Shown: positions 1-43,912 of the stretch, piece after piece
How positions within the stretch are numbered: position 1 is the first letter of the stretch
Layout of the letters: each line of letters begins with the position of its first letter
Source of the DNA: Theocolax elegans
Lineage: Eukaryota > Arthropoda > Insecta > Hymenoptera > Cerocephalidae
Assembly: GCA_026168455.1 (NCBI GenBank)
Contig: CM047427.1
Span: 38,010,905 to 38,074,904 of the forward strand
Reading direction: 5' to 3'
DNA: 64,000 nt
The notes under the pieces: generated by a model
Seen by the model: the letters and a program-made list of their open reading frames with translations, nothing else
Databases searched by the model: none
Told to the model about the DNA's origin: nothing
Position numbers and translations under genes: made by a program

Positions 1-1312
1 ATTTAACTTAATCACAATGTTACTTCTGCTAGATTCGCAGATGTCTTCAGGTGCTAATTTACTGACAAAAAACAATCAATAAAAAGAATAACACAAACAA
101 TTTCTTATATTATTGTTTAAGTTAAGAATAATTTAGAATATTGTTTAAGTTAAGAATAACTTAAACAATATTACAAGATATTGTTTATGTTATTCTTTTT
201 ATTCAATTTTTTTTTAAATTATAAGCCCCCTAAAGGTTGTGTAACTTATTTGAAAACAGATAATTCAAATTTTATTATTTAATAACATTGAAACATTGAA
301 TTATTATTATTAAAACAACTCCAAGTAATTCATATTCAATTCTTTTATAGTAGTATCTGAAGAACATAATAATAGATTTGGCTACATTATTGTCATAACT
401 GCAATGTTATATTATAATTGAATTTAAATAAATCTTGAAAATATAGAATTGTTATTTATATCTATAACAAACATAATCAGAAAATAAATAAATATGAATT
501 TATATAAAAAGTTTGATGACATACAAATAAGTCTCTTTAAGAAAGTTCAATACTCAATTTTTGTTGATTACATAACAAAAAAATAAACTAGTATATGCAT
601 AAATAAGGAAAGAGGCTCTTTTATTTATCCATAATCTGTGTGCTGAATATCAGACTAAAATGGAATTGTTTTTGAGCAATCCCTTACTAAAAATGTCAAG
701 TTTGTGTACCCTGTTAGAAAAAGTTTCACATGTTTGATAAGACTTTTATAGAAAATATAATAATATTTAATTTGATACAAAGGTGCATTTTTTCTTTTTT
801 TTTCCTAAACTGTTTCATTTACAGATATATTGCCAACTATTGTCTCCGTCAATAAGATAATGATTTTGTATATTGACTATGGCACCCTCATAATAGTTAG
901 ATACTGATAGTTTAATCAGGAAAAATGATTATCTTATTTAGAAGAATTCAAGATATCTAATTAATATTTTTTAAATCTTAAATGTACCTAAAATATTTAG
1001 TAACAATGCTAATCAAGAATCAAGATTGTCTCTTTAACTCAGAAACTTTTTATTTCATTTCTTATATTATATTACACACACATTTGAAGCAATAATTATA
1101 TATGACCAAGTAATAGTCCAATAATATACAATTATAAATCTTATACAAATTATAATTAATTAAAACTATTTATACAGTTTTAATAAATTAAATCAAAATA
1201 AAATACTGTTTATTAGTTTTTGTTTGTTTTCCATATAATTTTTATTATACCTATAAACTCAACTAATAATCCCTTTAAAAAATTATATAAGGTTGCAAAT
1301 AAAATATTTACA
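1..1312. other. AT-rich region without a recognised gene
   Basis: This stretch is strongly AT-rich, with short direct and inverted oligo-A/T words such as the TTAAGTTAAGAATAA copies near 118-165. I see no coding frame, RNA gene or element end here, except the degenerate repeat at 541-665 listed separately. Confidence 0.6.
541..665 (+). repeat. Degenerate dispersed repeat, also at 31308-31436
   Basis: Blocks shared in the same order with 31308-31436 are ATACTCAATTTTTG, an AGAGGC-containing block, and CTGTGTGCT followed by AGACTAAAAT. The two copies are well diverged. In the second copy the repeat directly follows a TTAA-flanked MITE and precedes the packaging ATPase frame. The type of element is unknown. 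Confidence 0.45.
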
Positions 1313-27430: not shown

Positions 27431-27604
27431 TTACTTCTTACTATTATTAAACGTTTTGTAGCCCTTTGCTTTAGGGCAAGACATTGTGTTTGATGAAAAC
27501 GTTTCTTTAGAATATGTTTTCCATTTCGATGGAGTCGTCTTTTCCTTTTTCTCTTCATTCTCTAAGAGGGGAGGAAGACGAACTGCACTGTTGCTAGGAC
27601 CCAT
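27431..27604 (-). CDS. Microprotein 3 of the MG family, 57 aa
   Basis: I do not recognise a known family. The ATG at 27604 is chosen because it lies about 40 nt below a TATA box (27636-27648) and aligns with the starts of the two neighbours. The protein begins MGPSNSAVRLPPLLENEEKK and is otherwise basic and Ser/Thr/Lys-rich. Gly2 and Ser6 fit an N-myristoylation signal; Cys4 of the two siblings is replaced by Ser. It is the most diverged of the three tandem copies. The function is unknown; membrane targeting is an inference from the N-terminus. Confidence 0.5.
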   Translation of the reverse strand: MGPSNSAVRLPPLLENEEKKEKTTPSKWKTYSKETFSSNTMSCPKAKGYKTFNNSKK

Positions 27605-27635
27605 GATGGAATGATGGAAGTTGATGATATTGTTG

Positions 27636-27648
27636 GTATTTATACTTT
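27636..27648 (-). promoter_or_regulatory. TATA box of microprotein 3
   Basis: On the minus strand this reads AAAGTATAAATACC, about 40 nt before the ATG. The leader contains CCATCATTCCATC directly before the start, matching the leader of microprotein 2. Confidence 0.6.
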
Positions 27649-27706
27649 TAAGGGAAGGGTGGAGGCCCCAACCAACGCCTCCATCTGTGAGGTACACCGC
27701 TTATCA

Positions 27707-27859
27707 TTACCTCTCCATTTCTTTCTTTTCATCGATTCCGATATTTGTTAAACATGTTCGTCGTTCTAATTTTTGATTGTTAACGATCGACTTACCTAAA
27801 TATTTTTCTTTGATGTCTAAGTAAGGAAGCAGTTGAAGTATCTTGTTGCACAGCCCCAT
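27707..27859 (-). CDS. Microprotein 2 of the MG family, 50 aa
   Basis: The protein starts MGLCNKILQLLPYLDIKEKY and continues with a basic region containing NNQKLERRTCLTNI. Gly2 with Cys4 is the pattern of dual N-myristoylation and palmitoylation signals, followed by a short hydrophobic LLPYL segment. Microprotein 1 shares the plan residue by residue (MGLC, LLPxLD, QKL-R-T-LxNI). The gene has its own TATA box at 27891-27903, with spacing to the ATG like that of microprotein 3. No larger frame or partner is visible. The family is unknown to me. Confidence 0.55.
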   Translation of the reverse strand: MGLCNKILQLLPYLDIKEKYLGKSIVNNQKLERRTCLTNIGIDEKKEMER

Positions 27860-27890
27860 GATGAAATGATGAGTCAATAACTTTGTGAGC

Positions 27891-27903
27891 ATTTATATAT
27901 CTT
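27891..27903 (-). promoter_or_regulatory. TATA box of microprotein 2
   Basis: The minus strand reads GATATATAAATGC. A TCATCATTTC initiator-like block lies about 31 nt downstream, just before the ATG at 27859. Confidence 0.65.
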
Positions 27904-27906
27904 CCT

Positions 27907-28059
27907 CTAGATACCATCTATTTCGTCATAAATGTAAGCACCTGCTTTAATGTTTGCTAATCGTGTCTCTCTTTTTAATTTTTGAAGACGTTTATTTGGT
28001 CGTATACTTTTCTTATCCAAGCAAGGTAGCAAACGAAGAATAATGCTGCACAGTCCCAT
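27907..28059 (-). CDS. Microprotein 1 of the MG family, 50 aa
   Basis: It starts MGLCSIILRLLPCLDKKSIR, then a basic stretch with QKLKRETRLANI and an acidic end. Gly2/Cys4 again fit a double lipidation signal. The leader is about 19 nt shorter than in the sibling genes: the ATG at 28059 is only about 12 nt from the TATA box (28071-28083). A transcript starting at the usual distance would miss this ATG, so the leader probably suffered a deletion. The TATA box overlaps the last codons of the upstream CxxH..C..C gene, showing tight packing. Confidence 0.5.
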   Translation of the reverse strand: MGLCSIILRLLPCLDKKSIRPNKRLQKLKRETRLANIKAGAYIYDEIDGI

Positions 28060-28070
28060 GATGAAATATG

Positions 28071-28083
28071 CATTTATATATCT
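28071..28083 (-). promoter_or_regulatory. TATA box of microprotein 1
   Basis: The minus strand reads GATATATAAATGC, identical to the box of microprotein 2. The spacing to the start codon is shortened. Confidence 0.6.
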
Positions 28084-28565
28084 TCCCATTCCATGATAGA
28101 TTCATTTATATAAAATTGACGCATCAACTTCACATTATGCAAGGTACAAATAATTTTGCATGCATTATTGTGATTGGAACAGACTGTTGCTAACTTAGGA
28201 TGGTCATAGGTTTGGTAACCCCATTCGTCGATATCACTGACTGGAATGTGGAAACGTCCAAGCTACTCTTTTCTCAAACCACCAATGACGAAAATACGAT
28301 CAGCGTTGTGCAACCGGTCTCGAATAATATTCCCAATTTCTGTGTAGTCGAGATCTCCAGAGTTCCAAGTTAGACCGTGGTAGCAGAGTTCAAACCACAA
28401 ATTCTTATGTCTATATTTCTGAGATAGTTTGTTCCAGGGAAATGGTGCTTTGAAGAGAAACAGTTCAGGTTGAGCGTCACCGGTGAGAGGATAAATTGCT
28501 AGCTCCTTCAGAACGAAATCGTTGCCTGGCTTCCGAAATCCTTGAACGTCTACTGCGTACTCCAT
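28074..28565 (-). pseudogene. CxxH..C..C accessory protein, left copy, one in-frame TAG
   Basis: The frame opens at the ATG of 28565 (MEYAVDVQGF) and stays open to 28074, except for one TAG at 28263-28265. The first 100 residues hold DVQGF, LKELAIYPL, LFLFKAPFPWNKL, CYHGLTWNSGDLDY and RIFVIGGL blocks. After the stop the frame continues into a Cys/His cluster (CSNHNNAC, then IIC). The right copy at 40566-41215 has the same order of blocks and is split by an intron at the point where this one has the TAG. I recall similar unnamed proteins in arthropod genomes. The D..KE pattern near the start could belong to an RNase H-like fold, but this is not shown. A TATA box lies about 40 nt upstream. Confidence 0.55.
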
Positions 28566-28673: not shown

Positions 28674-29913
28674 TTAAACGAGCTTGTTCACATCACTGCT
28701 AGCTGGATTATATTGTACAATGCGATCATGTAAAATCAAACAATATGCTGAAGTTCCAGCTGGAAAGTTGTTTCTCGACTCGAATTCTCAACGCACATCC
28801 ACTGGAGCGCTCTTTAACGATTCATTCTGTTTTGTTCAATCGATTACGATCAGTGGCATGTCATTCAGGTAATATAATTTTTTCAACATTGGTTCCGGAT
28901 CTTTACCGTAGTAAGAATTTTGAAAGTTGGTGTACATATCATACAAAATAGCATATTGATTATGAGTTACATCGAGATTTAGATTACCATATGGATAGTA
29001 TTGTGAATTGAGAAAAAGTTTTACATTAGTAATATTGCAGTGATCAAATTGACTAGCATTAGCCGTTTTTTGATTTTTACGATTGGTTTGAAAACCTAAA
29101 ATAACAAATCTAGGTTTTTCTAATGAATTGGATGTTTTTACAGTCCAAACATGTCTCGAGGTTGTTGGAAGAAGTGGATACTCGTACAATTCCCACGTTC
29201 GAAAACTCATGGATATCGCTCTATCTTTTCCAACGAAGTCGAGTAATCGAACTTTACGAGTATTTGATGGAATTACGTATGGCATGAGCCACTCGATCCT
29301 CGTTAAATTAATTTTAAAGTTTTCATACACTTCTCTGTTTTCCACACGTGTGGCAGTTTGAACAACAGCATTTAAATCATTCCTTGACCTCGTGAGGATA
29401 AGTTCATGTTTTGCGTTGATTACTATTTTACGATAATCTTCGGTAAAACCTAGAATCATACTTAAGGGAATAGAAACGTCAAAGTAGCCATCATTATTGT
29501 TAATTCTTTGCGTCTCCTCTATGTCTATCCATCCAGCCATTCTCAAGCATTAAAGTCTGACTGGGGTTGAATGATATCCAACCTTTCATTAGACTTGATA
29601 AACCCACATTTTTACTCTTATCTATTTCTATTGCATTTAATTCGTATCTTACTTCTTCAAATAAATGGCAAATAGCATTGTTTACTAAATGTGTATGCTA
29701 TGTAACTGAATTGTCTGATTTGAGCAGTCGTCCACAGATATGTAGAGAGCTGTGTGATGGTAAAAGACATAAGTCTTGATGTTGAATGGATATGCGAATT
29801 TCATCACTATTGTTGTAATTAGATGTAGTATACGGTTGATGTGCGTGAATTTCATAGTGCGCTACAGATTCGTCAAAGACGACTGGCGACTGTATGTTTA
29901 GAATCTCTTCCAT
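28674..29913 (-). pseudogene. Polinton major capsid protein (double jelly-roll), broken
   Basis: This is the major virion shell protein of Polinton/adintovirus-type elements. The N-terminal part is open from the ATG at 29913 to 29698 (EILNIQSPVVFDESVAHYEI, NDEIRI and QHQDLCLLPS blocks). A middle part of about 50 codons lies in another frame between 29697 and 29547 (a FEEVRYELN block). The C-terminal part is open 29546-28836 (IEWLMPYVIPS, ISMSFRTWELYE and FVILGFQTNR blocks). After a TGA at 28836 the frame continues through one more stop to a terminal TAA at 28674. The total, about 410 codons, fits the family. There are two frame changes and two nonsense codons, so no full protein can be made. 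The penton candidate is next upstream, as in related elements. Confidence 0.85.
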
Positions 29914-29943: not shown

Positions 29944-30033
29944 TTATTTTCCACCAAGAACAACTCGTATGCCTAGACTTTTTAGGAACTCTATGTTTCG
30001 ACGTGTTAGCGCTGTGACTGTCCGTCGTTGACT
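29944..30033 (-). other. Short basic reading frame before the capsid gene, no start codon
   Basis: Downstream of a TATA box and a TCAGTC initiator, one frame reads QRRTVTALTRRNIEF, then LKSLGIRVVLGGK and a stop at 29944. The basic and amphipathic composition recalls small core or condensing peptides of related viruses. There is no ATG in this frame after the predicted transcription start, so it is either dead or just leader sequence of the capsid gene. Confidence is low. Confidence 0.25.
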
Positions 30034-30067
30034 GATGGATTGTGCGCATGTTTTTTTGTTTATATAG
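30030..30067 (-). promoter_or_regulatory. TATA box and TCAGT initiator of the capsid transcript
   Basis: TATATA at 30061-30066 is followed on the minus strand by ATCAGTCAACG. The initiator A falls at 30033, 31 nt from the TATA box. This is the standard arthropod core promoter geometry. Confidence 0.7.
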
Positions 30068-31436: not shown

Positions 31437-32099
31437 TTGCGTTTTCAGCAGCAGCAAGATTCAAGACCAAAGAGACATGGCAATTTGCTTCCAGATAGCA
31501 TAAGATCTATATTTTGCGGTCCATCAAATTGTGGTAAAACTAATAGTTTATTTGCTCTTATAACTCACCCTAATGGAATTAGATTTGAAAATGTATATGT
31601 CTATTCAAAGTCGTTAAACCAGCCAAAATATGAAATGCTGAAAGATTTATTAAATCCTATAGACGGTATACAGTACTTTCCGTTTAGTGAGCATGATGCA
31701 GTAGTGGATCCAGATAACGCACTTCCAAATTCTATTATGATCTTTGATGACATTGCTTGCGAGAAGCAAGATAATGTTAGATCATTTTTTTGCATGGGTA
31801 GACATAAAAAGGTTGATTGTTTCTATTTATGTCAAACGTATACTCGAATTCCTAAACATCTCGTTAGAGATAATGTTAATTTATTAGCTTTATTTCGTCA
31901 AGATGATTTGAATTTAAAACATGTTTATGACGATCACGTTAACTCTGATATGAGCTATCTTCAATTTAAGGAGCTGTGTTCAAAATGTTGGAAAGACGAC
32001 AAGTATGGGTTTTTAGTGATTGACAAAGACAGAACAATCAATGACGGAAGATATAGAAAAGGATTTGATTGTTTTGCTATAAATATAACAAGTGCGTAA
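31437..32099 (+). CDS. Polinton packaging ATPase (A32 / FtsK-HerA type)
   Basis: This ATPase pumps the genome into the capsid. The 220-residue frame has a Walker A motif GPSNCGKT (about residues 29-36) and a Walker B motif IMIFDDI (about 100-106). A further conserved stretch is FYLCQTYTRIPKHLVRDN with its sensor-type polar residue. The length is near that of the family. No ATG lies in frame at the 5' end, and the frame opens from TTG. The repeat and MITE directly upstream have probably cut away the first few codons and the promoter. Otherwise it is intact. The DUF8207-like gene follows 40 bp downstream on the same strand. Confidence 0.9.
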   Translation: MRFQQQQDSRPKRHGNLLPDSIRSIFCGPSNCGKTNSLFALITHPNGIRFENVYVYSKSLNQPKYEMLKDLLNPIDGIQYFPFSEHDAVVDPDNALPNSIMIFDDIACEKQDNVRSFFCMGRHKKVDCFYLCQTYTRIPKHLVRDNVNLLALFRQDDLNLKHVYDDHVNSDMSYLQFKELCSKCWKDDKYGFLVIDKDRTINDGRYRKGFDCFAINITSA

Positions 32100-33456: not shown

Positions 33457-34367
33457 ATGGATCATCAAAAGCAAGCAGTGATTGATGAACTTCACAAACC
33501 AGCGAGACGTAACTATCCTCGTCGAAAGTTTAAAATTCTTGATTTGAATGAAACATGGCAAGCCGACCTCGTTGAGATGATACCTTACGCTAAGGAGAAT
33601 AAAGGGTATAGGTATATTGACAGCCATAGATGTTTTCTCAAAATATGCTTGGGCTGTAAAGAGAAAAACTGGAGAGGATGTTACTACTGCTATGAACAGT
33701 ATATTGACTAAAGATCATATACCAACAAACCTTCAGATTGATAGAGGCAAGGAATTTTACAATATCAAGTTTCAAAATCTTATGCAAAAACATAAGATCA
33801 ACCTGTATTCCACATTCAGCAACCTCAAAGCATCCATATGTGAACGTTTCAATCGAACACTGGAAAATGCCATGTGGAAAAAATTTAGTTTACGTGGAAA
33901 CTATAAATGGTTAGATATTTTACCAGAATTATTAGCAGATTACAATAATCATAAGCATAGAACCATCGGCATGAAACCTAAAGATGTATCAACAGCTAAC
34001 AGTCCTAGTACAGAAAAGATTTGCTCAGAAAGAAAAATCTAAAAATAAATCAAAATTTAAAATAAATGATAGAGTTCGAGTTAGTCATGTTAAACAAATG
34101 TTTGAGAAAGGATACATACCGAATTGGTCAACTGAGATATTTACAATCACTAGAGTTGCAGCTACAAATCCAACAACATATCATTTGAAAGATTATCGAG
34201 ATCAACCCATTGCTGGTAGTTTTTATGAAGAGGAACTACTGAAAGTGAAGTATCCAGATGTTTACCTAGTGGAGAAAGTTCTAAGGAGACGTAGAAATGA
34301 AGTATTTGTAAAGTGGCTTGGATTTGATCATTCTCATAATAGTTGGATTAGTAAAACAAATTTATAA
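33457..34367 (+). pseudogene. Polinton retroviral-type integrase with chromodomain, frameshifted
   Basis: The integrase inserts the element's DNA into the host genome. Three frames carry consecutive parts: 33457-33620 (TWQADLVEM, first catalytic Asp), about 33617-34005 (TAIDVFSKYAW, LQIDRGKEFYN with the second Asp, SICERFNRTLENAMW with the Glu) and about 34005-34367. The last part has an SH3-like RVRVSHVK block and a chromodomain, YLVEKVLRRR then VFVKWLGFDHSHNSWI. A C-terminal chromodomain is known in Polinton integrases and is thought to guide target choice. Two frameshifts (near 33617 and 34005) inactivate it. The end of the frame is 26 bp from a family C repeat fragment. Confidence 0.9.
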
Positions 34368-34393: not shown

Positions 34394-34548
34394 GGGCTAT
34401 TTCACGTCAAGTGGTACGATGAAAATTTTAAATCGCTCCAAAATTTGAAAACAGGCTGGAAATATCTTTCAGAAAATAGAAAAAAATTTTTAGATGTTAA
34501 AAATAATTTGCCTAAGAGTTATTCCACCATGAAAAATGGAAATTTTTT
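34394..34548 (+). mobile_element. Fragment of a family C (TA)n-associated repeat
   Basis: It begins GGGCTATTTCACGTCAAGTG and matches one end of the copies at 58797-59291 and 60784-61276. Only about 155 bp are present. It separates the integrase from the polymerase C-terminus and may have removed the last polymerase codons. Confidence 0.8.
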
Positions 34549-35979
34549 TTCCCCACCCCGGTTCGGCAACTCGATGGTTGTTGTAATATAAGTGGGAAGC
34601 TCAGCATTCGGAGTAGGGATGCTATAGTGTCCCCAAGGGAGAGTATCAGTCATTCCTACCTGCAGGTAGCGCTTATCATCCTGGGCACTGAGAGCGATTT
34701 TTGATTCTCTCTCGGTATGTAAAATATGCTTACGAGATCTAATATTTCTTTGTTCTCGTATCAAACAATTATTTTGATGAAGACAGCTAACGTAATCATC
34801 GAAATTAATGGTTGCTTTTACAACAGATGTTTTGACACCTTTAGCCTTCTTGATAGGTTTATTATTTTGAACTCTCGCGCTATACATTTTACTTCTCAGT
34901 CCAATAAACTCCAACATTATCTCACCGTTGCATTCATCCTTCATTAAACCAACAATCTTTTTATTCATGCGTGGCATATTAAACTGATTGTCATCTGCAT
35001 AAGCAGACGTGTCAAATTCATGAATATCATGTTTCATAACTTCATACATATTTACATCTGTCACCTCATACACCAAACTGTCTGTATCAGTATACAGAAG
35101 TTTACATTTGTCTCCAATACCATTTAACATCATTTAATCATAATGAAACCGGTATACGAGGGTCTTGGATAAGTCTAGAACTGTTAGTCCAACGTATATT
35201 GGTTTCTTGATGCACACTTCTGTTCGCATCATTTGAATTGCAACCAAGTTTTCATCAAAAATATCACAACTATGAAAATTTGGGCGAGATATAAGAGCTT
35301 TTGCACCGTATCGTCCTTTCCACTTATTGACCAATTTAATATCCACATGTTTACGTTCATTCTCCATTGTTTTGCCATACACAGCATTATTGAACAATTT
35401 AAACAGCATTTTCTCAAAGTCATTCTTGGCATGCTTCCTTTTTTCACTGTTTTATTTTTTCAACCATGCACACTGATCAAATTGAAGAGCTCGATGTACT
35501 TTCTTCAGGATGAGTCCATGCTTTAATGCCTGTTTGAGAGTTCTATAATGTATGACATAATGTTCTTTAGAATGCAATGTAGTCATTAATTTTTTCTGAC
35601 GAGATCCTGGAGCAGCTACGTGTTCTGCACAAAATGGTAAATCCTTATGGATATCATGAAGATGTTCAGGATATTCAAGATCCACTTCAAGGATATAACC
35701 GCGGGGAGAATCATCGGAAACTTCAAAAAAGTTTGGAATGTCAACAATTTGTACCCATTTGAATCCACCGTACGGTAACGATTCTGTCATGGCCCATCCA
35801 TACAGGTTATTAACATCATAGTACATGAGGTACTTTTCATTCTCGTCGGATCTATAACCTTCGTTCATATACTTATTGTTGGCTTTAGCGTAACGATTGC
35901 AGCACTGACTAATTCCTCCTCTTATACCACGTTCAATAAACATAAGCATATCTACATCAGTCAATAACTCCAATTTAAC

Positions 35980-36049
35980 CTGTTTAATAAAAGATTTCAT
36001 TTGATATTTATGATAAAGTAAAATAATAATTAAAGACATATTTATTTAC
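35980..36049 (-). other. Spliceosomal intron 2 of the polymerase, 70 bp
   Basis: The donor on the minus strand is GAG|GTAAATAAAT and the acceptor is ATTAAACAG|GTTAAA. The intron is phase 0. Seventy bases is not a multiple of three, and removing them brings the frames on both sides into one. The interior is AT-rich with a pyrimidine run. Confidence 0.85.
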
Positions 36050-36722
36050 CTCAATGTACTTGAGCATTGCATCCCACGTTAATCCTGGAGTTATATAGTA
36101 ATGCGCAGGATCTAAACCGTAAGCCTCAATACAGTTTGATCTAAAATTTTCAAATACTTCAGTGTACAGCAAAATGTCTGTTTTGAGATATAGATCAGAG
36201 TACTGCCCAAGAGTTTGTATATTAAACGTTTGCCACACTTTCTTTGCATGTTCATAATCCTCGTTGCAAATATCAGCATTATATAAACTGCTATAAAAAT
36301 CAGCTTTCGATGGTAGCCTATCATCCTTCAGCTTTTCGAACGAGGAAACATAATCGTATGGAAAAACTCCTTTCCTTTTTAAAAGAATGATCTGTTCACG
36401 AGTAAATCTATCGTCTAACTGAAAAATTTTCTCTAATCTGTCAAGACTTTCCAAATATGATGACAGCTTATCTAGAGATGAAGCCATAAATCTAAACGAG
36501 TCTATGAACCGTAGATTGATCTCAGTGCCTTCTATATACTTTGTAAATGATATGTATTTCTCTTTTGTTTGTGGAAGTATGCTTACTCGACCTGGAAAAG
36601 ACGTTGCTAACTCCTTAATAAACAAATGAGCGTCATAACCGCTCAGATTGTGGAAAACCACAGGTATTGTCCGCGAATCTTGATAATTAATATTACAAGC
36701 ATTATGAGCAGGACCTCGATAC

Positions 36723-36789
36723 CTAAAAGAATAAAGAAAATAAAAATTATTTGACCACAATGTTGTAGAAAAAGAAATTTCATACTTAC
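36723..36789 (-). other. Spliceosomal intron 1 of the polymerase, 67 bp
   Basis: The donor is GGAAA|GTAAGTATG, a perfect consensus, and the acceptor is TTATTCTTTTAG|GTATCG. The intron is phase 2. It lies within the Cys/His knuckle region between Exo I and Exo II, and removal restores family-typical residues on both sides. Confidence 0.88.
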
Positions 36790-36854
36790 TTTCCGGTAAA
36801 GTGACAATGATCTCTAACTTTTTTATCTTGTGACGTAAAAGGCTTTTCACATAT

Positions 36855-37717
36855 CGTCGCCTCCGAATAAAAACATTCTAACTCAGAAATCGCTTGGAAA
36901 ATACGTTAACTCAGAATTCGCTTGGAGAACACGTTAACTCAGATATCGCTTGGAGAACACGTTAACTCAGAATTCGCTTGGAGAACACGTCAACTCAAAA
37001 ATCGCTTGGAAAACACGTTAACTCAGAATTCGATTGGAGAACACGTTAACTCAGAAATCGCTTGGAGAACATGTTAACTCAGAAATCGCTTGGAAAACAC
37101 GTTAACTCAAAATTCGCTTGGACAACACGTTAACTCAAAAATCGCTTGGAGAAGACTTTAACTCAAAAGTTGCTTGGAGAACACGTTAATTCAGAGGATG
37201 ATTTTTGGCGCCTCGATTTAAGTTGGCACCACTGCCAAAAATTTTTAACAGTTCAAGAATAAATAAAAAAACTTTCATATATTTATACACGTATTTTTTT
37301 TTTAATTTATCTAAGCGTTCTTATTATACACTAATGCGTTCTCCTAAAAAAGGTGGAAAATTCATTAAATATTTAAGAAAATCGTAGAAATTAGTGTTTT
37401 CGATAACTTTTGAAATCGATATGTATACGGGCTCTCCATAAATGTGTAAAAGTACATAAATTTATTTCTACTATAAAATATAGTACACAGGTGTATATTC
37501 TCTCAGATAAAAGTTGTCGCCTCAGCATAAGCGAGGATAATAATATAATTCATTTGAGGGGATTATCGGATATTACTCCAGAAGTGTAAATAAAACTATT
37601 CACCCTGTTCACTTTGATAATAGCTTACTTAATTATATGAATTTCTAAATTGATTCAATGCTGCTAAATTTTGTATTAATTAACTTAAATAATGAATTTA
37701 ATTTTGACTTAATTATA

Positions 37718-37778
<61 letters not shown>

Positions 37779-38517
37779 AAGTATACTTTGCATCGCAAGA
37801 GGGAACACAGTTGAACTTTCTCCCATACAAAATATTTTTTAGATAATCGCTAAAACTAAACAAAGTAAATTTTTTAATATTTATATTAAAAACAATATAA
37901 TTATGAAATAATGCAATTTCATAAAAATAAAGTACCAATACATCACAATATCAATTCTTTCAAATATTTATTCTACGATTTATAGTAGAAATAAATTTAT
38001 GTACTTTTACACATTTATGGAGAGCCCGTATACATATCGATTTCAAAAGTTATCGAAAACACTAATTTCTACGATTTTCTTAAATATTTAAAGAATTTTC
38101 CACCTTTTTTAGGAGAACGCGTTAGTGTATAATAAGAACGCTTAGATAAATTAAAAAAAAAATACGTGTATAAATATATGAAAGTTTTTTTATTTATTCT
38201 TGAACTGTTAAAAATTTTTGGCAGTGGTGCCAACTTAAATCGAGGCGCCAAAAATCATCCTCTGAATTAACGTGTTCTCCAAGCAACTTTTGAGTTAACA
38301 TGTTCTCCAAGCGATTTCTGAGTTAACGTGTTCTCCAAGCGATTTCTGAGTTAACGTGTTTTCCAAGCGATTTTTGAGTTGACGTGTTCTCCAAGCGAAT
38401 TCTGAGTTAACGTGTTCTCCAAGCAATTTCTGAGTTAACGTGTTCTCCAAGCGAATTCTGAGTTAACGTATTTTCCAAGCGATTTTTGAGTTAGAATGTT
38501 TTTATTCGGAGGCGACG
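36855..38517. mobile_element. Foldback element with tandem repeats in its arms, inside the polymerase gene
   Basis: The 1,663-bp element is flanked by ATAT (36851-36854 and 38518-38521). It begins CGTCGCCTCCGAATAAAAAC and ends with the complement. Each arm starts with tandem units of about 28 bp, AACTCAGAATTCGCTTGGAG plus AACACGTT, roughly 11 on the left and 9 on the right. About 280 bp of near-identical inner arm follow. Both inner arms contain the same 60-codon frame (37205-37387 plus, 38069-38251 minus), of unknown meaning. The centre holds (TA)n(TG)n at 37722-37777. Tandemly repeated arms recall Drosophila FB and Galileo elements. Confidence 0.85.
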
Positions 38518-40389
38518 ATATATAACATGATTTAGCTCTGGCAAATTCAGCTTTCTCTTGTAAAGATAAGTCTCTCATACTTTTAGGATTCTTATTTAGT
38601 CTTTCCATTTCCAAAGCAAGAGCATTGAGATTTTGTACAAACCACTTAGCTGGAGTTTCATCTCCTGGTTGAAGTTGTCTATAGCTCTTATAAATTGATC
38701 GTTTATCATCAAAGCTACATTTCATGAAAAATCCAACACTATACGCTTCATGACGTTGATATGCACGTTTTTCATTAACTGTTGGTTTTAAAAAGCACTC
38801 AAAATCTCCATAGACTATGAAGGGAACTCTATTTTTATAATTAAAGTTTTTAAATTTAAGAATATTTTGTTTCTCTTGAGGAAGCACAATTTTACATTTA
38901 TTCACTTTTTCGCAATCAGTAGTATGAGTTGATAATTTATCAGCAGTCCAAAAGTAATGAAGACAGCGATCACATATGTATGCTTTATGTCGGCGAACAG
39001 ATAATTGATTTCTGACCAGTCTAGAAAGATCTTTTATCCAAACATAATGAAATTTATGATTTTCAGCAAAGTTATCATCATCATCAACAAATTTTTCTTC
39101 TTCTTCTTCTTCATCCACATACTGATTCTCAAGAAGAAGCAGATTAACGTGTTTATTTTTTTTCTCGGTTGTTAAATGTCGTGGTAAAACTTTATATATT
39201 GTACCTGTCTCTTTTAAAAAATAAACATTGACAGAGATGTCATTCTGTTTTTCAAATATACTAACTTGTCTCACATTAACTGGAAAATCAATACCTTTGA
39301 AATTTAACTCATGTTCATATTGTGTATAGCTTGAGACGCCATTAGTGTTACAATTAACTGGATGCAATGCTGATAATAGAGCCCACTTGAAACATTTATT
39401 GTCTTTATTCGCAACATTTACACAAGCTTTCTTTTTCACAAGGAAAGGTGGTAAATCAATGAAGGAGCTTCCTCTCATAGGATTAAACTTACATATTTTA
39501 ATAGTTAAGTTTAAAATAGCTCGTAAAGTCTAACCAGAATCTTTCTCTTGGAATTCCTCAATGTCAATGCTAATAGGTTGATGAATGTTCAACATAAACC
39601 ACTCTTTCAAGTCTGTAGTGGAAAAGATTGGCATAGACTTTGTGTTAAAATACTTAATCTCATTAGCCTCTTCATGGCTCTTTATAATCGCAAATTCTGC
39701 TGCCTACACTGCATCAATTTTTATAGCAGCATTGTCTTCGAGTATCTGATTTATTTTTTTAATAAACAAAGGCAGAACATTATTCATAAAACTTGAAAAA
39801 TCTAAGTGTTTACGGTTTGTAACAACAACTGTCTTAATTCGATTTTCAAAAGCACTATCAACATCATCCCTAGTTATTGTTGATGTATCTGTAGTATGAA
39901 TATTAGCTTCTTTCTCTAGTTCTATGATTGGTTCAACAACAGGCGCAATACCAGATCCGGCAACAAGAGCATCTTCGTGAACGTCAGAACTTGTATGTTC
40001 ACTAGGTGTAGGAAAAACTTCAAACACATGCACAGAGCCTTGAAATAATTGTATAACACTTTTAATAACTCCTATTGCAGCTTCAAGTTTTCTTTTCTCT
40101 CCTACACTTAAACCAGGAGTACGTGCATATAATTGAGCTGCTGTCAATGCTAATGTTCCAAGGTTTAACCAGCGTTTTATATCATTAGCATTGGCTACAC
40201 CAAGGAAAACAGCATGGTATGATTCCCACAACTTATTGGCTGTATCCTTGTAATATTGAGCCGTATACATAATGATGATAGTTTTTAATTAAGTTTCATG
40301 CTTTATGAGAATAAAATCTAACAATATTACTTTTTCTTCAGAGGAGCGATTTAGTATTCTACTTAGACTCAAGAGAGCTTTAGTTGAAC

Positions 40390-40527: not shown

Positions 40528-40562
40528 TATAAAATACGGCCCAACCGTTGCCTAGTTCAATC
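40528..40562 (+). promoter_or_regulatory. TATA box and initiator of the right CxxH..C..C gene
   Basis: TATAAAA at 40528-40534 and TCAATC at 40557-40562; the initiator A at 40559 is 31 nt from the box. Confidence 0.6.
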
Positions 40563-40565
40563 ATC

Positions 40566-41215
40566 AAGGTTTCAAGATCACAGTAAATGAATTCGTCTAC
40601 AAAGAGGTAGCCATTATACCTCTAGAGGAAGATGCAATACCTTCAGTATTTCTCTTCAAGCCACCTCATCCTTGGGAGCAATTGCTAGAGAAGAGTAAAT
40701 GTGAAAATAGTTGGCTTGAAAGAAATTATCATGGAATATTATGGAGAAGTGGTACAATACCATATGAGGAAGTCGGTAGAACAATTCGAACCATCGTTGA
40801 AAATTCACAAGTGTACATCAAGGGACTTAAAAAATCAAAATGGTTGAAAAGAATTTTAGCTGAAGAGTAAGCATTTTTCTATTTTTTAAATTGAGATCCT
40901 CTAGTGTAAATTTTAAAGAGTATATTAGTGTACAAAATGTACAGAGCAAGTGTAGTTGAAGAACTATCACGCATTAATGCACACTCTGGTACACTTTTGC
41001 ACATTTTATTATTTATATCACTAGGGGCAATATCAAATATCAGCTTATTATTATTATTATTAAATTTCCATAGATCAGTTCAAAACATTGAAGACCTTGG
41101 ATGTCCATCTCTCAAAAATCTGCCCATGGAGACTGCATCGTGCTCAAAACATACAGAATGCATGTATCCAAAGTGTGCTCTTCCAAATGCTCTCGCCATG
41201 AAGCAATGGTTGTAA
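40566..41215 (+). pseudogene. CxxH..C..C accessory protein, right copy, with intron and no start codon
   Basis: This is a paralogue of 28074-28565 in opposite orientation at the other end of the Polinton block. Exon 1 (40566-40866) carries QGFKITVNEFVYKEVAIIPL, LFKPPHPWEQL, NYHGILWRSG and VYIKGLKKS. Exon 2 (41074-41215) carries NIEDLGCPSLKNL and the cluster CSKHTECMYPKC, and ends at TAA. No ATG precedes QGF in frame: the region between the initiator (40559) and QGF is about 8 nt, compared with a longer leader and 21 coding bases in the left copy. A deletion of the start is likely. Function is unknown; the CxxH-x2-3-C-x3-4-C cluster suggests metal binding. Confidence 0.55.
40867..41073 (+). 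other. Intron of the right CxxH..C..C gene, 207 bp
   Basis: Donor GAAGA|GTAAGC, acceptor AATTTCCATAG|ATCAG preceded by a long T/A-rich run. Splicing keeps the frame and joins the two blocks in the same order as in the intronless left copy. Confidence 0.78.
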
Positions 41216-41910: not shown

Positions 41911-42028
41911 GGTGTGTGTGTTTAATTTACCCAGCTGGAAAGGTATATAAGTAGGAATTATGAAGGTTGTGTTTTTTTCTTTATTACAAAAATGGAATAA
42001 ATTGTTCCAAACGTTTGAATGCTTTGGT

Positions 42029-42044
42029 GGCCCTGAAAAGGGCC
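42029..42044 (-). terminator. Histone-type mRNA 3' stem-loop
   Basis: The minus strand reads GGCCCTTTTCAGGGCC followed by ACCAAAG. All 16 positions fit the metazoan replication-dependent histone consensus GGYYYUUYUNARRRCC, and the 3' flank ACCA also fits. It lies 21 nt after the stop codon of the acidic protein gene on the same strand, the distance seen in histone genes. In histone mRNAs this element is bound by SLBP and replaces the poly(A) tail. No histone gene is nearby. Confidence 0.82.
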
Positions 42045-42065
42045 GATTGATTTTAAATATTAAAT

Positions 42066-42590
42066 TTATTCTGAGTCGGAATATGACAGTCGACGACAGC
42101 ACTTCTTTTTAACTGCTCTCTTCGGCGTTGCATTACACTCTATCTTTATGCTTCTCTTATTTAATGTTGGTGTAACTGCAGTTGGTGATGTGTCACTAGA
42201 GTCTGTTATATGAACTATTTCCAGCTCAATTTTAACTTCCGGACTTTCTACTACTGGTTGAGGATTGGGAGGAATATTCTCGATATTCTCAATATTCTCG
42301 ATAACCATCACTTCATCGTCCTCTTGCTTTTGCAAATGTTGCATCTCTATCTCATCTCTGTTTATCTCTACATAATATCCAAGAGGATTGTAGAGATAAA
42401 CAGGTGGCGAAATGGGAGATGTAGTATTTGCAAAAGAAAGAGGAGGAGTCTGTGGTGATATATCGGGAACATCGGGAAGTATCTCAAGATCCTCATCTTC
42501 CAGTAGCGGAAATTCCGGAAATGGCAATTGAGCGAGGTAATTCATCTCGATGTCTAAATTCTGCTCGATAAGGCTTAAAAAGTCTTCCAT
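42066..42590 (-). CDS. Acidic 174-aa protein with histone-type 3' end
   Basis: I do not recognise the family. The protein begins MEDFLSLIEQNLDIEMNYLA. It is Pro/Glu/Asp-rich through about residue 110, with a stretch of ENIEN repeats (about 98-108), then VKIELE and IKIE motifs that fit SUMO-acceptor sites. It ends in a basic tail KRAVKKKCCRR, a likely nuclear localisation signal. An acidic domain plus NLS suggests a transcriptional regulator or scaffold; this is inference. It has a TATA box (42627-42635), TCAGTC initiator (+1 at about 42600), a 10-nt leader and a histone stem-loop after the stop. A basic protein gene diverges from about 200 bp upstream. The frame is intact. Confidence 0.65.
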   Translation of the reverse strand: MEDFLSLIEQNLDIEMNYLAQLPFPEFPLLEDEDLEILPDVPDISPQTPPLSFANTTSPISPPVYLYNPLGYYVEINRDEIEMQHLQKQEDDEVMVIENIENIENIPPNPQPVVESPEVKIELEIVHITDSSDTSPTAVTPTLNKRSIKIECNATPKRAVKKKCCRRLSYSDSE

Positions 42591-42596
42591 GTCGTC

Positions 42597-42635
42597 GACT
42601 GATGAACGATACCAAAATACGCTCTCATTTATATA
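42597..42635 (-). promoter_or_regulatory. TATA box and TCAGT initiator of the acidic gene
   Basis: CTATATAAATGAG on the minus strand, then TTCATCAGTCGACGAC with the initiator A at 42600, about 33 nt away. The ATG follows after 10 nt. Confidence 0.78.
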
Positions 42636-42783
42636 GTCGCCGACAAGTCATAGTTGCACGCGATTGGTCAGTGAGTTTGGGTAGGGGATTGTACATTTTG
42701 ATTACTAGCGGCGCGGCGGCTAGACGCGGTCGAACAGGGATTGGTTGATGTGGTCGTAGTGGGATGCGTTTATCCACAGCACG

Positions 42784-42819
42784 TATAAATAAATGACTCG
42801 CGGACTTGCGCGTATCACT
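42784..42819 (+). promoter_or_regulatory. TATA box and initiator of the divergent basic gene
   Basis: TATAAAT at 42784-42790 and TATCACTT at 42812-42819, initiator A near 42816. The first ATG (42827) follows within about 11 nt, the same short-leader layout as the acidic gene. Confidence 0.65.
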
Positions 42820-42826
42820 TCCCGAC

Positions 42827-43308
42827 ATGAATGCCGAGAAGAAACACCGGCAACGGGGTAGGCGAGGGGTAAACGGGTGCGTCAGATGGAGGCTTCGCGT
42901 GCTTGGTATAGTGCCAACCATCCTCCACTTCATGTAACGCCAAATCCTCGATTTGTAACTCCGACTCGTCCCTTGCATCTTCGCGATTTTGCAGCTGACG
43001 AGAAATCGTCGCTGCGGCGTGAAAGCGAGGTTAAACGGGAACGATTATAATTTCGAGCGAAAAGGCGATACGTGAGGTATATAGCTAAGCTATCGGAGGC
43101 TCAGGTATGCGCTACGCCGCGTCGTCAACATCGGCACTCGTCCCTTCTTTTGCTTCGAAGTCGGTTAGGTGTTAAACGCAAGATATTTCCTTTTCGCGAA
43201 ACAGCAGATGGCGGGAAACTGCCACCGCAGCGCGAAAAGGAAATTAAACGCATTAAACACCGCTTACAACACCGAAGGTTGCGACGCTACTTTTCGTCCG
43301 GAAGAACA
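42827..43308 (+). pseudogene. Arg/Lys-rich protein gene, divergent to the acidic gene, broken
   Basis: Three overlapping frames follow the promoter. From the ATG at 42827 a 36-codon basic peptide (MNAEKKHRQRGRRG start) ends at 42937. From the ATG at 42886 a frame of 54 codons (MEASRAWYSANHPPLHVTPN start) ends at TAA 43048-43050. The same frame continues to about 43308 with Arg-rich sequence (RQHRHSSLLLLRSRLGVKRK, REKEIKRIKHRLQHRRLRRY). I read this as one gene for a very basic, probably nucleic-acid-binding protein, damaged by a stop and perhaps an early frameshift. The part after 43308 is antisense PLE and not part of the gene. Confidence 0.4.
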
Positions 43309-43562
43309 AAATCTAAACAATGCTCTTTCAAACCTGATGTGACAGATACACTCCTCAAACTATATTTATGTTCATAAATTCTCTTTTTCAAATAATTTCA
43401 TTCATTTGATTTTAAAAATGTAGAAATTTTAGAACAAAATATTATGAATAAATTTAAAAGAGAAAGTCTTGAGAATATTCATATATTTAAGAATGATAAG
43501 AATGTTAATTTAATGTTTGAGTCAAGTAAATTAAATAAGATTTATCATCCTATCTTAACTTA
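43309..43562 (+). mobile_element. 5'-truncated Penelope-like element with inverted 5' segment (copy 2)
   Basis: The minus-strand piece 43309-43395 encodes the LKKRIYEH to CLDFV part of the GIY-YIG domain. The plus-strand piece from about 43393 encodes the following SFDFKNVEILEQ to HPILT part. As in copy 1, the inverted segment is the one just upstream of the sense segment, with its 3' side outermost. Insertion cut the basic gene at 43308. Confidence 0.85.
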
Positions 43563-43659
43563 GCTTAGTTTATTGGTGTGAATTTATTTAGGGTGGGTCC
43601 GTGGAGTGGGGAGGCTTTTTTGAGGGTTTAAATATCGTGTGGAATAGATTTTCATTTCA

Positions 43660-43699
43660 GTCCCTGATGAGGAGCAGCAGCGAGCTCGAAACGTCGGAC
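43660..43699 (+). ncRNA. Hammerhead ribozyme, second copy
   Basis: Same core as 4214-4253 without change in any paired or catalytic base: GTCC/GGAC stem I, CTGATGA (43664-43670), GAGC/GCTC stem II, GAAAC (43688-43692) and cleavage triplet GTC (43693-43695). Confidence 0.85.
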
Positions 43700-43912
43700 A
43701 TCATATTTGGGGTTAGTAAATTTTTGGTGCAGGAGGGCAGTCAGATTGCTTTATTAATAATCTGTTTTTATGTTTAGTTAGTGTTTTTATTTTTTATATT
43801 TTATATTTTTTATTTTTATTTTTATAGATTCTTCGGGGGTGATTATAAGTAGGGGCAATCTGATTGCCCATATAATTGACTGTAAGACCGATAAAAATAT
43901 TAATTAATTTAT
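43700..43912. repeat. PLE tail joined to LINE 3' end, second copy
   Basis: It matches 4254-4470, including the GCAGTCAGATTGC inverted pair and the first 40-80 bp of the LINE 3' end. It then stops at (TA)n, where a family D element follows. Confidence 0.65.

Follow-up and report, generated by a model that had tools for sequence, protein, structure and literature searches.

The window, which is the whole 64,000-nucleotide stretch of Theocolax elegans DNA analysed here, carries on its minus strand a gene for an acidic protein whose coding frame is followed by a histone-type 3′ stem-loop. This hairpin is a signature of histone mRNAs. The features of the gene are as follows.

42635-42628, minus strand: TATA element TATATAAA, core promoter of the acidic gene
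42604-42591, minus strand: initiator block CATCAGTCGACGAC with TCAGT (42602-42598), core promoter of the acidic gene
42590-42066, minus strand: uninterrupted acidic frame of 174 amino acids, with relatives in the same genome
42044-42029, minus strand: histone-type 3′ stem-loop GGCCCTTTTCAGGGCC between the flanks CAATC and ACCAAA, matched by RF00032 and by pattern
42005..42016, minus strand: candidate histone downstream element AAACGTTTGGAA, starting 13 nt after the stem-loop
41985-41980, minus strand: AATAAA, 44 nt 3′ of the stem-loop, a possible fallback poly(A) signal

The frame of 174 codons begins MEDFLSLIEQNLDIEM..., and 21 nt separate its TAA stop codon (42068-42066, minus strand) from the stem-loop, directly 3′ of which stands ACCAAAGC on the same strand. 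An earlier note on this DNA had described an intact acidic frame of 174 codons with its own TATA and TCAGT initiator and, 21 nt past its stop, a stem-loop followed by ACCA; the coordinates and orientation of these features were confirmed. The core promoter region (42591..42635, minus strand) gives a leader of about 10 nt. It is retained in the related loci L031 and L034 and in part in L032, where L numbers designate loci elsewhere in the same genome. A second AATAAA overlaps the stop codon of the acidic gene and, given such a signal on either side of the hairpin, polyadenylated forms of the mRNA are possible. In addition, an imperfect inverted repeat lies inside the coding frame at 42307-42459, where matches to miRNA families are far under the gathering score.

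A relaxed stem-loop pattern, built from the histone consensus, has a single match in the 64-kb window compared with none in 100 dinucleotide shuffles, which bears out the fit to the metazoan consensus proposed in the earlier note. Under a second-order Markov model, the strict form of the pattern is expected by chance 4e-4 times per window on both strands, and approximately 3e-7 times in the sense orientation no more than 100 nt from a given stop. The Rfam model RF00032 aligns to the stem-loop over its full length (positions 1-46) with an Infernal score of 33.3 bits (E 1.3e-7 in 1 kb). In this covariance-model check, which the note had suggested, the window stem-loop lies 0.7 bits below the gathering score of 34. 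Consequently, a default Rfam scan lists nothing for this hairpin.

The surrounding element

Judged by its gene content, the block that contains the acidic gene is an adintovirus/Polinton-like element. Its other features are listed below.

28836..29540, minus strand: piece of a double-jelly-roll major capsid protein (PF21738, 6.2e-76)
30024..30066, minus strand: promoter-like site, TATATAAA and CATCAGTCAACGAC, upstream of the capsid frame
31635..32099, plus strand: piece of an A32-like packaging ATPase, with 70% identity to 'FtsK [Megastigmus wasp adintovirus]'
33692..34367, plus strand: integrase-like frames with a C-terminal chromodomain (Chromo PF00385, 9.6e-6 on 33984-34367)
34519..39478, minus strand: pieces of DNA polymerase B (PolB; DNA_pol_B_2 at 35452-36039, 2.9e-8), interrupted by inserted repeats
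39530..40288, minus strand: frames p188 and p57 of the element, with synteny in L031-L033 and a p188 piece also in L034
40556..41215, plus strand: convergent element gene (gene40556), with two exons as judged by eye and 47% identity over 92 amino acids to 28263-28565 (minus strand)
42764..43290, plus strand: divergent basic-protein gene, broken by a frame change and one stop

A search of the protein database with the ATPase piece gives 1384 relatives at E 0.001, and among the 120 listed one bears the name Megastigmus wasp adintovirus. A search of the genome contigs with an alignment of this ATPase yielded no relatives, and neither did a search of viral contigs with the acidic, capsid, PolB and ATPase proteins. 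Pfam gives no OTU domain in the N-terminal PolB piece (38435-39478), and no rve match for the core piece of the integrase. The basic gene of the window is without the last 30 of its 206 residues and without a 3′ hairpin. The 28263-28565 (minus strand) and 40556-40870 (plus strand) frames form a related gene pair at the two sides of the element. Near its other side, at 27600-28100 (minus strand), several small frames starting MG.. are each accompanied by a TATA box and start site, as judged by eye.

The promoter-like site upstream of the capsid frame links the acidic gene to this element. Its CATCAGTCAACGAC sequence is identical at 13 of 14 positions to the initiator block of the acidic gene, and this match, together with the conserved gene order described below, indicates that the acidic gene belongs to the element. 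Terminal inverted repeats framing the element were not found, with 25 of 81 inverted-repeat pairs listed, and the ends may have been lost by decay. The interruption of PolB by repeats and the lack of framing terminal repeats make the window element look like a decayed endogenous copy. Further out, the sequence at 43660-43710 (plus strand) resembles a hammerhead ribozyme core; an Rfam search of 43400-43900 gave nothing at E 0.1 for such a core.

Relatives of the element and of the acidic gene

When the window frames were compared with other loci of the genome by tblastn, the order basic gene, acidic gene, hairpin, gene40556, p188 and PolB was recovered in L031 and L034, and the same order from the acidic gene onwards in L032 and L033. 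The acidic-type frame of L033 is short and rich in S and P, and is recognised by its place and composition in the absence of a tblastn match. Identity to the N-terminal PolB piece is 97% in L031, 72% in L034 and 60-64% in L032 and L033, and the acidic protein is 33-41% identical in L032 and L034. The basic gene can also end in the hairpin: it does so 7 nt past the stop in L031, again in L018 and L060, and with one unpaired position in L034. Basic frames in divergent orientation are present in L032 and L033 as well, by eye, and the sequence examined has no hairpin within one mismatch on the basic-gene strand of these two loci.

Loci L001-L070 were selected for holding the hairpin, and the only set of acidic copies chosen independently of it comes from a protein search. 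This search gave 19 matches at 16 loci of the genome, many of them decayed; it misses the most diverged relatives, and L032 and L033 are outside its matches. Flanks were examined at 14 of the 16 loci, including the window, L031 and L034, the other two being fragments without the C-terminus. The hairpin is retained in 10 of the 14 flanks (9 of 13 when the window is excluded), with six fitting the relaxed consensus and four carrying one mismatch. In all four loci without it, the protein match ends before the C-terminus. Three of these flanks read by eye as other element sequence, and that of L081 is unrecognised.

The state of the hairpin follows that of the frame. It is exact at all four uninterrupted full-length acidic frames and at two of the six broken ones, and the four one-mismatch hairpins all stand at frames containing stops. 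The association of an intact frame with an exact hairpin is suggestive only, and makes the hairpin look like a regular part of the acidic gene, with the two decaying together.

The acidic protein

No Pfam family matches the acidic protein at E 0.1, and the proposal that the gene is a histone gene was rejected on this ground. None of 55 word-sharing candidates from the protein database matched at E 10, and the best matches of a PDB search reached only E 0.4. The earlier note had placed a non-histone gene in a Polinton-like block, which agrees with these results and with the presence of capsid, ATPase, PolB and chromodomain sequences. Among the observations that would count against its reading, it had also named homologues that regularly lack the stem-loop and homology to a host histone-cluster gene. 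Within this genome the hairpin is kept in most of the acidic flanks (10/14), and the Pfam and protein-database results give no indication that the gene originated in a histone cluster.

A single-sequence AlphaFold2 model of the protein has a mean pLDDT of 45, and most of the chain is predicted to be disordered. By eye, it contains many S/T-P sites, with a TPKR and an RRL, candidate CDK and cyclin motifs, near the C-terminal end. As a conjecture, such features would suit a cell-cycle regulator. The acidic gene is best read as a gene of the adintovirus/Polinton-like element, with a probable regulatory role.

Genome-wide distribution of the hairpin

The strict pattern occurs at 537 places in the 658-Mb assembly, compared with four for a reversed control. 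On this count and the Markov expectation, a chance origin of the hairpin was rejected. Of the 537 places, 100 were listed, all on C1 and C2, and we read 81 of these, in 70 loci that overlap in some cases; the remaining 19 include several with a TTTTTA loop. Together with the window, the 70 loci give 89 occurrences in 75 distinct contexts. Sorting by crude patterns divides these into 46 Tc1-TIR, 4 famC, 4 famD and 21 other contexts, although three of the latter belong to famC or famD by eye. The families that end in the hairpin in the loci read are the acidic gene, the basic gene, Tc1-like, Tc5-like and mariner-like frames, and histone H1. The hairpin is not peculiar to one gene, as it is also found on the basic gene of the element and on several DNA transposons.

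Among the transposons, each of the two long terminal inverted repeats of the Tc1-like elements in L038 (2800-5083) and L043 (2642-4687) contains the hairpin, which points outwards. In L035 a transposase frame (DDE_3, 6.2e-14; HTH_Tnp_Tc3_2, 1.6e-12) ends 90 nt before the hairpin, which has no long arms around it in the stretch searched. L054 encodes the C-terminal domain of a Tc5 transposase (301-554, minus strand; 2.7e-14), with the hairpin 16 nt past the stop. By eye, its sequence downstream of the hairpin is similar to that in the Tc1 class, and for this reason the two need not be independent. In L039 and L068, a transposase frame is followed by hairpins 22 nt apart, three in L039 (3029-3088) and about five, some of them imperfect, in L068. 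These frames are called mariner-like by eye, and that of L039 has no Pfam match at E 0.01. Two to three tandem hairpins also stand behind acidic S/P-rich genes in L033 (4118-4189) and L070. Finally, the hairpin is present on the two linker histone H1 genes of L047, one recognised by Pfam (4.9e-28) and the other by eye, which serve as a natural positive control.

Two further hairpin-bearing repeat families were noticed, famC (L003, L014, L017, L025, L041) and famD (L004, L008, L012, L013, L062). One member of each was tested for CGT downstream of the hairpin, and both (L017 and L008) have it. In L022 (1501-3016), which like L020 was assigned to no family, the hairpin lies just upstream of p188 and PolB but on the other strand, and no gene was found for it to end. 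A search of viral contigs with the pattern GGCYCTTTTCAGRGCCAC gave no match.

The sequence CAATC before the hairpin and ACAAT or ACCA after it are common to many families. RF00032 gave eight matches over the gathering score, in 7 of the 16 loci submitted; among them are both L031 genes, acidic and basic (35.6 bits for L031), and the acidic gene of L032. None was obtained in the other nine loci, which include the H1 locus L047. In an alignment of 21 hairpins, 99.2% of cells pair, as expected of hairpins selected with a pattern which favours pairing. Changes on both sides occur at two stem pairs; 36 of 500 shuffles reach that number, and 2 of 500 reach the covariation score. Covariation in the stem therefore supports RNA pairing weakly.

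A downstream motif and the host processing factors

Histone cleavage requires a downstream element that pairs with U7. The tetranucleotide ACGT occurs within the first 45 nt after 13 of 20 hairpins, where mononucleotide shuffles give a mean of 2 and a maximum of 6. In 10 of 12 representatives, CGT is found at +5 to +20, compared with a shuffle mean of 0.98, no count as high in 5000 shuffles, and 0 of 12 in an upstream control. This window was fixed after the ACGT result was known, and the 12 representatives are partly dependent, in that they include two acidic types, two H1 genes, and both L054 and Tc1. In these 10 representatives, the CGT stands 7-17 nt 3′ of the hairpin, the distance expected of a site that pairs with U7. 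One of the two H1 genes has the motif, and the basic family lacks it. Where hairpins are in tandem, in L039 and L068, CGT follows the last of them, and the 6-nt gaps between hairpins are too short to hold it.

We predict that the host U7 bears a 5′ end complementary to this downstream motif. A search with the U7 model RF00066 gave no match in the host, and also none in 14 control genomes, and is therefore uninformative. The SLBP RNA-binding domain (PF15247) is present in the host at C3:2631859-2632145 as two pieces over the cut-off, one of them in a stop-containing frame.

Proposed mechanism and alternative explanations

Taken together, the sequence features make it likely that the mRNA of the acidic gene is made by the host histone pre-mRNA processing pathway. 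SLBP would bind the hairpin of the acidic mRNA, and U7 snRNP would pair with the AACGT-containing site approximately 13 nt downstream. Cleavage would then produce a hairpin-ended mRNA lacking a poly(A) tail which, by analogy with histone mRNAs, would be made and be stable mainly in S phase. For the element, the gain would presumably be poly(A)-independent expression in S phase, while DNA replication in the nucleus is available. The same ending appears to be used by the divergent basic gene and by several DNA transposons of this genome. A broader proposal, which we regard as evenly balanced, is that in this host lineage adintovirus-type, Tc1-like, Tc5-like and mariner-like elements took over the histone pre-mRNA pathway, either independently or serially. 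Their regulator and transposase mRNAs would then be free of poly(A) and confined to S phase, timing the replication or transposition of the element to host DNA replication, and tandem hairpins may add to SLBP capture.

The hairpin might instead recruit or titrate SLBP, as a decoy or an aid to translation, on an mRNA that is polyadenylated at the downstream AATAAA. The position of this signal 44 nt past the hairpin is consistent with such a role, and tandem hairpins (three in L039, about five in L068, two to three in L033 and L070) would suit multivalent SLBP binding. We nevertheless find this unlikely, given the CGT at U7 distance in 10 of the 12 representatives and its presence after the last hairpin in L039 and L068, though the gaps of 6 nt leave no room for it between hairpins. 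The repeats would be explained differently by a signal acting in DNA, such as a recombination, replication or transposase site, that merely resembles a histone hairpin. The placement of the hairpin in the long terminal inverted repeats at both ends of L038 and L043 fits this idea, as does the size of the Tc1-TIR class, the largest at 46 of 75 contexts by crude sorting. However, the fit to RF00032 includes the flanks, the hairpins lie in sense orientation just past the stops of different coding genes, the CGT motif follows downstream, an identical 16-mer is found on host H1 genes, and the hairpin of L035 occurs without long arms in the stretch searched. A role in DNA is accordingly highly improbable.

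Copying would account for the similarity between families if a histone 3′ end, once captured by one element, had then passed from element to element with no present function. Indeed, 16-mers are identical across many families, the CAATC and ACAAT or ACCA flanks are shared, and, by eye, the Tc1 class and the Tc5-type L054 have similar downstream flanks. Other flanks are not alike, however, and the exact hairpin stands 21 to 100 nt from the stop in acidic genes whose proteins are only 33-49% identical. In addition, it is exact in the four intact frames and mismatched only in frames with stops. Copying without function is therefore quite unlikely, and a captured origin would in any case be compatible with present function. 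It is very unlikely that the acidic gene is a host gene adjoining the element or domesticated from it, which would not exclude processing by the histone pathway. The acidic frame is intact beside a broken PolB and a broken basic gene, as a host gene might be, but in L031, L032 and L034, as by position in L033, it sits at the same point next to element genes. Moreover, it has an initiator block in common with the capsid-side promoter, and it occurs at 16 genomic loci, many of them decayed.

If processing by the histone pathway is correct, the SLBP/U7 pathway is usable by selfish genes, and these genes offer natural non-histone substrates for testing what the pathway requires. It also suggests a direct route by which elements couple their expression to S phase. 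In insects and other animals, RF00032 matches that lie away from histone clusters would then merit re-examination.

Comparison with known systems

The literature covered, mainly as titles and the beginnings of abstracts with most subscription papers outside coverage, reports neither a transposon nor an adintovirus-type gene with a 3′ end of the histone type. A 2009 paper (PMC2781718), in its accessible part, describes the stem-loop as a feature of histone mRNAs alone and states that direct regulation of other genes had never been ascribed to SLBP. A contact between SLBP and viral RNA is known from SARS-CoV-2 (PMC12166091, in the portion available), but there the RNA is the frameshift element and not an mRNA 3′ end.

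The element itself is like adintoviruses and Polintons (Mavericks) in its double-jelly-roll capsid, A32-like ATPase, PolB, and an integrase end with a chromodomain. It differs in the histone-type 3′ end, which is not reported on genes of these elements in the literature searched, as far as the sources could be accessed. A preprint (PMC11071296), in the text available, describes an adintovirus-type PolB with an N-terminal OTU-like domain and histone-like proteins (Histoid) in adomaviruses; the term 'stem-loop' occurs nowhere in that text.

The closest counterpart of the structure in the window is the 3′ end of metazoan replication-dependent histone mRNAs (RF00032), served by SLBP and U7 snRNP. 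The two share the 16-nt stem-loop, its flanks, the ACCA, a short 3′ UTR, and a candidate element at approximately +13. In contrast, the genes that carry the structure here belong to mobile elements and are not histone genes; it sometimes occurs in tandem, and AATAAA lies nearby.
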